A DNA stretch of 64,000 nucleotides, taken from assembly GCA_016788565.1 (NCBI GenBank), contig JAEUSP010000052.1, forward strand, positions 1-64,000, written 5' to 3'. A model generated the notes under the pieces. That model was not told the origin of the DNA and searched no databases. It worked only from the letters and a program-made list of their open reading frames with translations. This document shows, one piece after another, positions 3,592 to 13,836 of the stretch (position 1 is its first letter; each line of letters begins with the position of its first letter). The position numbers were made by a program, and so were the translations under genes. This stretch comes from Chlorobiota bacterium (GTDB lineage Bacteria > Bacteroidota > Ignavibacteria > OLB7).

Positions 3592-3892
3592 TCAGTCGGT
3601 GCCGTAAGCTGGCAGTGTGTCCGATGCTCTCCCAGAAACCCGCGAGATCGCTTCGTCGAAGACTCCTCGCGATGACAGTGATGGTGGTTCGGTGAAATCC
3701 CTCTTCGTCATTGCCAATGGCGACGAGGCTGATACTCTGTCCGATGCTCTCCCAGAAACCCGCGAGATCGCTTCGTCGAAGACTCCTTGTCATGGACCCC
3801 GACCCGTCGGGGCGATGACACCGCGTGAGTTTGGGAGAACAATTCATTGATTCTCTCAAACCCCTCTGTTCCAAGTATAACCAGCAACAACC
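3592..3892. repeat. 121-bp direct repeat pair (family A)
   Basis: No gene seen. Two near-identical units begin with GTCCGATGCTCTCCCAGAAA at 3618 and 3739, a period of 121 bases, each followed by the CGCTTCGTCGAAGACTCCT core. The same unit, diverged, is present at about 935-1030. The second unit breaks off into a GACCCCGACCCGTCGGGGCGATGA stretch that recurs near 62630. Confidence 0.8.
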
Positions 3893-7012: not shown

Positions 7013-7074
7013 TCCGGTGGCTCCGCTCATACTTCGACGGGGCTCAGCATGAGCGGAGGGCGGCGTTCGGTGGA
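7013..7074. repeat. Family B REP-like palindrome, reference copy
   Basis: CTCCGCTCAT (7021-7030) pairs perfectly with ATGAGCGGAG (7049-7058) around a loop containing ACTTCGACGGGGCTCAGC. Other copies: 7312-7372, 8143-8205, 13498-13545 (inverted), 20068-20105 (partial), 22824-22868 (inverted) and 23088-23103 (partial). Many copies are edged by TTCGGTGG. Confidence 0.8.
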
Positions 7075-7199
7075 GTTTATACTCCAAACAGAGTGGTTTG
7101 CGAAAAACTTCATCACTGTCATTCCCGCGAAAGCGGGAATCCATACCACACATAGCTGAGTAGAATTTCGCAAACCAATTTGCGCCGAGTATACTCCAC
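7070..7199. mobile_element. Nested inverted-repeat, MITE-like element
   Basis: Three inverted repeats are stacked around one centre. The outer arms are GTGGAGTTTATACTCC (7070-7085) and GAGTATACTCCAC (7187-7199). The middle arms are TGGTTTGCGAAA (7094-7105) and TTTCGCAAACCA (7166-7177). The centre is ATTCCCGC-GAAA-GCGGGAAT (7121-7140), a REP-type hairpin. It has no coding capacity. A partial relative lies at 7928-7958 (TTTATAACTCCA, then TTGGTTTGCGAGA). The size and structure fit a MITE; target-site duplications are not clear because repeats flank it. Confidence 0.6.
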
Positions 7200-7458
7200 C
7201 CCGTCATCGCGAGGAGTCTTCGACGAAGCGATCTCGCGCATTGCTGGGATGGCATCGGACACCGTGCCACTCGCCGGATGGGCTTCGTCGCGATGACGGT
7301 ACTTCCCTGTTCGGTGGCTCCGCTCATACTTCGACAGGGCTCAGCATGAGCGGAGGGCGGCGTTCGGTGGTGACTCCAACATTCCCCACTTCCCATTCTT
7401 CACTCTTCCATTCGACATTCGACATTCGACATTCGACATTCGACATTCCACACTCCCC

Positions 7459-7893: not shown

Positions 7894-8271
7894 GGCTTGA
7901 TGATTGAAGATGTGAGCGGTGCTTGTGTTTATAACTCCAATGAAATTGGTTTGCGAGAATCAAGGAGTCGTCCTCCCAAACGTACGCCCCGTCGTCATCG
8001 CGAGGAGTCTTCGACGAAGCGATCTCACGCGTTGCTGGGAAGTCATCGGACACCGTGCTGGCCGCGGGATCGCCACGTCGCTATCGCTCCTCGCGATGAC
8101 GAATCGGAGTTTTTCGAACCTCCATCACGGTACTTCGTAGTTCGCTGGCTCCGCTCATACTTCGACGGAGCTCAGCATGAGCGGAGAGCTGGATTCGGTG
8201 GAGGTTCCAGCAGTTCCCACTCTTCTATTCGACATTCGACATTCGACATTCGACATTCGACATTCGACATT
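7894..8271. repeat. Repeat-filled gap with partial MITE relative and families A, B, C
   Basis: No gene seen. A partial relative of the nested element is at about 7928-7958, a family A copy at 7993-8030, a family B palindrome at 8143-8205, and at about 8227-8272 a 9-bp ATTCGACAT array of about five units that runs up to the lysA stop codon. Confidence 0.75.
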
Positions 8272-9588
8272 TCACCCCAGAACCTCTACTTGCAGCCTCA
8301 TCATATCCTCCAACGTCTCGCGGCGGCGGATCAGATGTGGCCGGCCGTTCAGCATCAACACCTCGGCCGGGCGTGCGCGAAGGTTGTAGTTGCTGGACAT
8401 TGCGTAGCCATACGCCCCAGCATTTTTCAACGCCAAAATTGTCCCTTCCTGCGCCTCCACCAATCGGCGATCAACGCCGAAGGTGTCGGTCTCGCAGATG
8501 CAGCCCACCACCGTGTAAATCCGCTCGGTCCCCTGAAGTTGGTCGGCGTTGATGATGCCGTGGTAGGAATCGTACAGCATCGGGCGGATCAAGTGGTTCA
8601 GCCCGGAATCGGTTCCGATAAAGACGCAGCTTGGGGTTTGCTTCAGCACGGTTGCCGTCACCAACAGGTAGCCCGACGCGCTCACCAGAAATTTCCCCGG
8701 CTCGAACCACAACTCCAACTCCCGCCCGTACTCCGCGCAGAACTCTCGGAATCGCGCCGTCATCGTCTCACCCAGGGATTCAACATCGGTAGCGATGTCA
8801 TCCGGTTTGTAGGGGACTTTGAACCCGCTGCCAAAATCAAGGAATTGAAGATCGGGGAACTGGAACGCGGCATCGAACAAAATTTCCGCGCCGGTCACGA
8901 ACGTCTGCGCATCAAGAATTTCCGACCCTGTGTGCATGTGCAATCCCACCACGTTCATCTGGTAGGCGCTCACAATCCGCAGGATGTGCCGCATCTGGTG
9001 GATGGAGATTCCGAACTTGCTATCAATGTGCCCGGTTTGGATATGGGCGTTGCCGCCAGCAAGGATGTGCGGGTTAATCCGGATTGCACACGGCTTGCTT
9101 CCCCCATATTTCTGGCCGAACCGCTCCAGCACGGAGATGTTGTCAATGTTCACCAGCACCCCCCGCTCGGCAGCATACTCAACCTCGCTGAAGGCAACAC
9201 AGTTGGGGGTGAACAGAATTTGGCTGGCCGGCACGCCACAGCGGAACGCAAGCTCCACCTCGTTGGCCGAGACCGCATCAATCCCCGCGCCAAGCTGGTG
9301 GATGAACTTGATGACCGCCACGTTGTTGTTGGCCTTGCAGGCGTACAGCAGCCGGTGCGGCACCCCCGAAAAAGCGTTGGCTAAACGTTGATAGTGCTGG
9401 CGGATAACTTCAGCATCATACACATACAGCGGGCTGCCGAATTGCTCCACTAATTGGCGCGCACTTTGGCCACCAATGTTCAGCGCGCTATCGGGCGAAA
9501 CCGCCACAGCAATTGGTTCTGTTTCCATCTCAGTTGTTTCCATCTCAGTTGTTTCCATCACGGTTGATCCCATCTCAGTTGTTTCCAT
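8272..9588 (-). CDS. lysA: Diaminopimelate decarboxylase
   Basis: 438 residues. It catalyses the last step of lysine synthesis, meso-diaminopimelate to L-lysine and CO2, with pyridoxal phosphate. The PLP lysine is K85 in YACKANNN, the glycine-rich phosphate site is in LDFGSGFK, and the CxxTDTFG motif near the end (GCICETDTFG) supplies the partner-subunit cysteine and acid of fold-type III decarboxylases. The first 22 codons are a 15-base tandem repeat coding METTE units that the enzyme fold does not need. The start at 9588 is favoured because a TATCTTTG box ends only 4 bases upstream, so the mRNA may be leaderless; start codons inside the repeat are possible. Confidence 0.93.
   Translation of the reverse strand: METTEMGSTVMETTEMETTEMETEPIAVAVSPDSALNIGGQSARQLVEQFGSPLYVYDAEVIRQHYQRLANAFSGVPHRLLYACKANNNVAVIKFIHQLGAGIDAVSANEVELAFRCGVPASQILFTPNCVAFSEVEYAAERGVLVNIDNISVLERFGQKYGGSKPCAIRINPHILAGGNAHIQTGHIDSKFGISIHQMRHILRIVSAYQMNVVGLHMHTGSEILDAQTFVTGAEILFDAAFQFPDLQFLDFGSGFKVPYKPDDIATDVESLGETMTARFREFCAEYGRELELWFEPGKFLVSASGYLLVTATVLKQTPSCVFIGTDSGLNHLIRPMLYDSYHGIINADQLQGTERIYTVVGCICETDTFGVDRRLVEAQEGTILALKNAGAYGYAMSSNYNLRARPAEVLMLNGRPHLIRRRETLEDMMRLQVEVLG
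9526..9588 (-). repeat. In-frame 15-bp tandem repeat at the lysA 5' end
   Basis: Units of ATGGAAACAACTGAG (read on the minus strand) occur four times with small changes and code for METTE. Each unit carries an in-frame ATG, so unit gain or loss would keep the frame and leave a start codon. Confidence 0.8.
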
Positions 9589-13428: not shown

Positions 13429-13836
13429 TGCAGAAAATACAGATGCTCATCTAAAGTTAGCGGGCAAAGTATGATCCGAGCTACCGACAAATAGAGTCCC
13501 CGCTCATGCTGAGCCCCGTCGAAGTATGAGCGGAGCCACCGAACTCGCGCCCCCCTGCTTCGCTCTGGCGAGCTTCGCGTCCCCCCAATTCTGGGGGGAA
13601 AGGGTGGAATAGCAACGATGTACGCACGCGCCCCCGCGCTAACTCGTGGGAATACGGAAGAGAAGCCACTCCCCTCCGCTTATGTTGAGTGTGCCGAAAC
13701 AGATGCTTCCTGCAACAACCACAACGTTGGCGGGCGTGGGGTCTGGGGGCTAAGTTTGCGGCTGTTTGCGTTGCAGGCATCGAAGGTTTGCAGCCAACTA
13801 CGCAGAGTGAGATCACGCAGAATTATCCTTCCCAAC
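13429..13836. repeat. Divergent intergenic gap with inverted family B copy
   Basis: The gap lies between divergent mutY and the cystathionine beta-synthase gene. A family B palindrome sits at 13498-13545. The sequence just after it (CGCCCCCCTGCTTCGCTCTG and on to about 13600) recurs in inverted orientation near 62765-62815. The open frame upstream of 13837 has no homology that I recognise and is probably not coding. Confidence 0.65.

Follow-up and report, generated by a model that had tools for sequence, protein, structure and literature searches.

The nested palindrome at positions 7078–7193 of the analysed stretch of DNA, which is 64,000 nucleotides long and is referred to as the window, is very probably an IS630-type MITE that was moved in trans and carries a captured CGTC-1 REP as cargo. 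It would be a non-autonomous miniature transposon of the IS630 type (bacterial Tc1/mariner-like), whose 28-bp ends presumably serve as recognition sites in trans for a transposase encoded by an IS630-family element of the same genus. Comparison of sites shows that it inserts at TA and duplicates this dinucleotide. An ancestor of the element probably captured the CGTC-1 REP hairpin at its centre, and the REP copies of this genome, which are found in association with the MITE, would have multiplied mostly as its passengers. The exactness of the core next to diverging and reassorting arms probably reflects recombination between copies together with some constraint on the hairpin sequence.

An alignment of 30 copies showed agreement from TATACTC to GAGTATA and immediate divergence outside of these motifs, which places the borders of the element at 7078 and 7193. 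The complete MITE, with terminal inverted repeats TATACTC...GAGTATA and including the TA target duplication, spans 116 bp on the plus strand. Its left terminal inverted repeat (TATACTCCAAACAGAGTGGTTTGCGAAA, 7078–7105, plus strand) is identical to the left end of an IS630-family element at 23 of 28 positions, and the right terminal inverted repeat at 7166–7193 reads TATACTCGGCGCAAATTGGTTTGCGAAA on the minus strand. Together they form the middle inverted repeat of the palindrome, 28 nt long and 79% complementary. Between them lie, all on the plus strand, a left arm leading from the terminal repeat to the core (7106–7117), the invariant 26-bp CGTC-1 REP core GTCATTCCCGCGAAAGCGGGAATCCA (7118–7143, assigned by the family definition in PMC3733652), whose TGTC tag is completed by the T at 7117, and a right arm leading from the core to the other terminal repeat (7144–7165). 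Both arms differ among copies. In being short, without coding capacity, high in copy number and bounded by 28-bp ends, the element agrees with an IS630-mobilised MITE.

The first-pass annotation of this DNA had described three nested palindrome levels of MITE-like design. The MITE-like character is borne out by the terminal repeats, the many copies and the TA duplication, and the inner and middle levels stand as well. The inner hairpin ATTCCCGC-GAAA-GCGGGAAT was found exactly at 7121–7140, the one match in the window at up to 3 mismatches, with 0.02 expected. The outer level, however, is site-specific target flank. The outermost left arm GGTGGAGT (7069–7076, plus strand) lies outside the element, and the outermost right arm ACTCCACC (7193–7200, plus strand) is flank except for the terminal A. 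The flank differs at every MITE copy, and over 67 copies its palindromy showed no excess (2.75 matches of 10 versus 2.74 in shuffles), which rules out a third palindrome level as part of the element. As to the nested origin suggested in the same place, the best reading is that a REP sits within a MITE, with two levels in the element instead of three.

Roughly 150 copies of the MITE are present in this genome (G000). A first blastn search of the window's genome yielded 73 matches, 40 of which covered the whole element, and 311 MITE ends were detected in the genome at up to 2 mismatches, with 0 in the control. A search of the genome and its relatives for copies had been advised at the outset, and the proposal was to be given up if a single copy without related ends existed; the 311 related ends dispose of this objection. 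In about 1.17 Mb of the genome we found 59 end pairs, mostly enclosing 116 bp, with variants of 95–157 bp and a few of 231–299 bp. About a quarter of the genome was sampled for the detailed copy analysis, and most of the collected copies come from contigs picked for carrying a match. The sister species (G001) contains 11 ends by the strict pattern and 112 by a looser pattern, the latter mostly of other subfamilies. Strict MITE ends are essentially absent in the sampled other genomes of the same class, and viral contigs gave no exact end match, so that phage-borne copies were not found. At one locus of G000 (C38:62529-62706, L318) part of another element abuts a 116-bp MITE, the TATA at the junction being common to both.

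Nearly all copies retain the TA on both sides. Joining the flanks of an element with one TA and searching the sampled DNA revealed empty sites that have a single TA. Contig C113 of G001 aligns without interruption, and with one TA, to the flanks of the element at C86:33844, and positions 13430–13544 of the window align in the same way to the flanks of the element at C27:13532. These empty sites are few and their flanks have diverged. The copy at 7078 itself yielded no clean empty site, its best unoccupied relatives reaching 74–75% with gaps at the junction. The single-TA empty sites nevertheless confirm a target-site duplication, one of the checks that had been proposed for this element.

The nested palindrome folds far better than its shuffled versions, with a z of -7.0 as DNA and -7.3 as RNA. 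One might therefore regard the element as an RNA or DNA structure, for example a terminator, an mRNA stabiliser or a protein site, which is maintained as such and whose copy number reflects selection for function. Besides the strong fold, the exact conservation of the core and the scarcity of copies inside ORFs (11/54 versus 88% of random points, based on naive gene calls) would suit this view. We consider it very unlikely, since compensatory changes were observed in 0 of 32 predicted pairs, neither a terminator-like site nor an Rfam match was found, and the intergenic copies showed no preference for convergent genes (10/41). Moreover, the insertions are precisely bounded by TA, which shows that the MITE moves.

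An IS630-family element whose ends match those of the MITE is the most likely mobiliser. In G000 the left ends of IS and MITE agree at 23/28 positions, a value reached by 0 of 100000 shuffles. The assembled IS ends match the MITE ends at 23/28 and 21/28, which is good, not perfect; going by the end sequences, a near relative of the assembled IS may be the actual driver. In the sister species the IS end and its small MITE agree at 29/30 end bases. A bridging element of 145 bp (C77:46580-46724) has a left end of the IS type, a right end of the MITE type and a long core of the CGTC type.

A profile search with PF13358 (DDE_3) found no gene in the G000 or G001 assemblies and thus no complete transposase, so that only the ends of the partner are known in these two genomes. 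Both ends, the transposase C-terminus and the start of the IS630-family element remain in the draft; its body is missing, since many contigs are interrupted some 125–141 bp into it. Overall, many contigs start or stop 90–147 bp within an element whose ends are those of the MITE. In G000, contigs C105, C78, C36 and C35 start at base 1 inside the IS right end and contigs C47, C63 and C10 start inside the IS left end; in G001 more than 20 contigs likewise break inside such an element. Breaks of this kind arise at an IS that is present in many copies and exceeds the assembly word in length, and we therefore ascribe the missing body to the draft. The apparent absence of IS630 from the genome is accordingly put down to an assembly gap. 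The readable transposase C-terminus is FREAILNFFKNIGNYRTELESLLTLNFHIP, and contig C30 supplies the upstream part NLLERLWKFMRKK. These short fragments from G000 gave no match to Pfam DDE_3 and nothing useful from NCBIfam or Pfam. Degenerate relatives with the same motifs in genome G103 match Pfam DDE_3 at 3.3e-11. At DDE_3 loci in G002–G004 and other genomes a regex search detected no TATACTC ends. In the sister species there are two or more IS630-family elements whose ends are related, in numbers high enough to break the assembly (contigs C10, C20, C21, C22, C64, C75 and others).

The central hairpin TGTC-ATTCCCGC-GAAA-GCGGGAAT-CCA fits the definition of a CGTC-1 REP (PMC3733652), having a TGTC tag at 7117–7120, an 8-bp stem starting with AT, a 4-nt loop and a CCA tail. 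Head-head dimers, which are common among CGTC-1 REPs though not strictly defining, are not seen here, each 116-bp element containing a single unit. The first-pass comparison of the hairpin with dRS3 was apt, as dRS3 is a CGTC-1 REP in PMC3733652. A REP at the centre raises the question of a RAYT, a gene for which a search had been recommended. A Y1 tyrosine transposase could have recognised the inner hairpin, which would then have been inserted separately into each older palindrome. The core is indeed a REP and the most conserved part of the element, core variants of different length occur with several arm types, and one Y1_Tnp gene is present. However, this gene (C137:35586-35927 in G000, L031), the only one found in the genome, sits among the different palindromes GCCCTGAAGGGGC and CCCAGGGCGTTGCCCTGGG and is not flanked by the REP of the MITE. 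The tag is TGTC and not GTAG, and the cores lie nearly always between the same IS630-like ends. A phmmer comparison of the local RAYT with the ORFs at 80 loci that carry the core in other genomes, some of these loci being short, gave no relative, and CGTC REPs have been reported without a dedicated transposase (PMC3733652). Separate insertion by a RAYT is hence highly improbable. The sole Y1 transposase, with its own unrelated palindromes, is probably not the mobiliser of a MITE whose ends match an IS630-family element; its locus looks like a separate, genuine REP/RAYT system.

In the sampled part of the genome 49 of 55 cores are located between MITE ends, with about 2.4% expected by chance per side; four free cores were found in the G000 sample. 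In three genomes of the same class (G083, G072, G085) the core is free, as no common arms are seen in its flanks. When up to 3 mismatches are allowed, 52 of 296 genomes in this phylum contain it. Among the matches listed, the exact 26-mer was present in contigs labelled with many phyla, often as an inverted pair 40–80 bp apart (L153–L232). Since most sampled cores lie between MITE ends while the core is free in related genomes, the plain reading is that an IS630-type MITE captured a CGTC REP specifically in this lineage and that the REP then multiplied as its cargo.

A related element of a second type is found at 7931–8110 (plus strand). It is decayed and has a similar left end, a centre in which a different CGTC-type REP forms an inverted pair (GTCATCGCGAGGAG...CTCCTCGCGATGACG) and a right end that is not recognisable. 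A decayed end of the same type lies at 3852–3879 (minus strand), and when intact, as at C47:12541, the element measures 231 bp. The partial relative noticed earlier at 7928–7958 is real and represents a single decayed end of this second type. Because the second type carries another CGTC-type REP, MITEs of this group seem to have captured REPs on more than one occasion. The events could also have taken the opposite order, IS630-type elements having collapsed into free CGTC REPs and arms having formed around pre-existing REPs several times. Several arm families and the second MITE type carry different CGTC-type REPs, and MITEs of G001 with other ends carry long CGTC-like cores, in line with this order. 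It is unlikely all the same, as most copies have nearly identical arms, which indicates that amplification followed one or a few captures.

All 66 collected copies of 116 bp share an identical 26-bp core. Their remaining 90 positions show 25 singletons, and against about 7 expected in the core 0 were seen (P about 7e-4). The invariant core is also carried by 49 of 49 copies that were found by their ends alone, and the 17 copies on wholly read contigs show the same invariance. Variation does occur in medium and long cores. Among copies, reassortment of arm types with core types is seen, short, medium and long cores being found with several arm types. Four-gamete rates amount to 73% across the core versus 53–56% within the arms, so that reassortment is general. 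The core as a special exchange point was rejected, the excess being modest. The invariant core and the reassortment would be explained by gene conversion among copies, by a constraint on the hairpin or by the two together.

CGTC REPs are widespread, and the question of their mode of movement has been open; Di Nocera et al. proposed that a wide range of transposases may move them (PMC3733652). In the concrete case described here nearly all sampled REP copies travel inside an IS630-type MITE, which makes this idea testable and suggests one route by which hairpins lacking an enzyme can spread. The 66 copies with an invariant 26-bp hairpin and varying neighbours further allow one to ask what keeps such hairpins exact. 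More tentatively, and with considerable doubt, CGTC REPs may in general spread by capture into the centre of MITEs that are moved by ordinary transposases, IS630 among them; an active process, either conversion or the binding of a conserved host factor, would keep the core exact, and the core would be exchangeable between MITE families.

By analogy, the closest functional counterpart is RUP of Streptococcus pneumoniae, which was proposed to be mobilised by IS630-Spn1 (PMC2229807). Like the present MITE, RUP is short (about 107 bp), occurs in about 108 copies, targets TA and has IS630-like terminal repeats; host and end sequence differ, and a CGTC REP at the centre of RUP is not described in PMC2229807. 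The Correia/NEMIS elements of Neisseria resemble the MITE in size (107/155 bp), TA termini and an optional internal segment, but have other ends, and a CGTC core is not described for them in the same paper. The core itself shares the TGTC/CGTC tag, the 8-bp stem starting with AT, the 4-nt loop and the CCA tail with the CGTC-1 REPs, which include Neisseria dRS3 (Di Nocera et al. 2013, PMC3733652). Most CGTC REPs in the literature form head-head dimers with diverse flanks (PMC3733652), whereas here a single unit is fixed in a MITE in 49 of 55 sampled cases. The nesting of REPs in palindromes has precedents in PMC3733652: in Anabaena variabilis GTAG-15 dimers lie inside TATAGGA...TCCTATA palindromes, and in H. 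neapolitanus CGTC-1 dimers lie inside 41-bp palindromes. Both resemble the present case in that REPs are regularly nested in a longer palindrome, with TATA ends in A. variabilis, and differ from it in carrying dimers and in having no tie to a transposase there.

Further repeats were noticed in the neighbourhood of the MITE. Inverted pairs of the other CGTC-type REP (GTCATCGCGAGGAG...) are located at 7201–7299, directly adjoining the MITE, and at 7992–8102 of the window, and occur in about 15 copies per Mb. Palindromes of a third family, CTCCGCTCATACTTCGACGGGGCTCAGCATGAGCGGAG, are likewise abundant and are found at 7021–7058, 7318–7355 and 8149–8186; its core occurs about 42 times per Mb and often adjoins other repeats. 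Intergenic tandem 7-bp repeats, (CATTCGA)n, are present at 7409–7450 and 8232–8269 and recur in the genome. The minus-strand ORF at 8272–9588 has the N-terminus METTEMGSTVMETTEMETTEMET, a short tandem repeat, perhaps owing to a wrong start codon.
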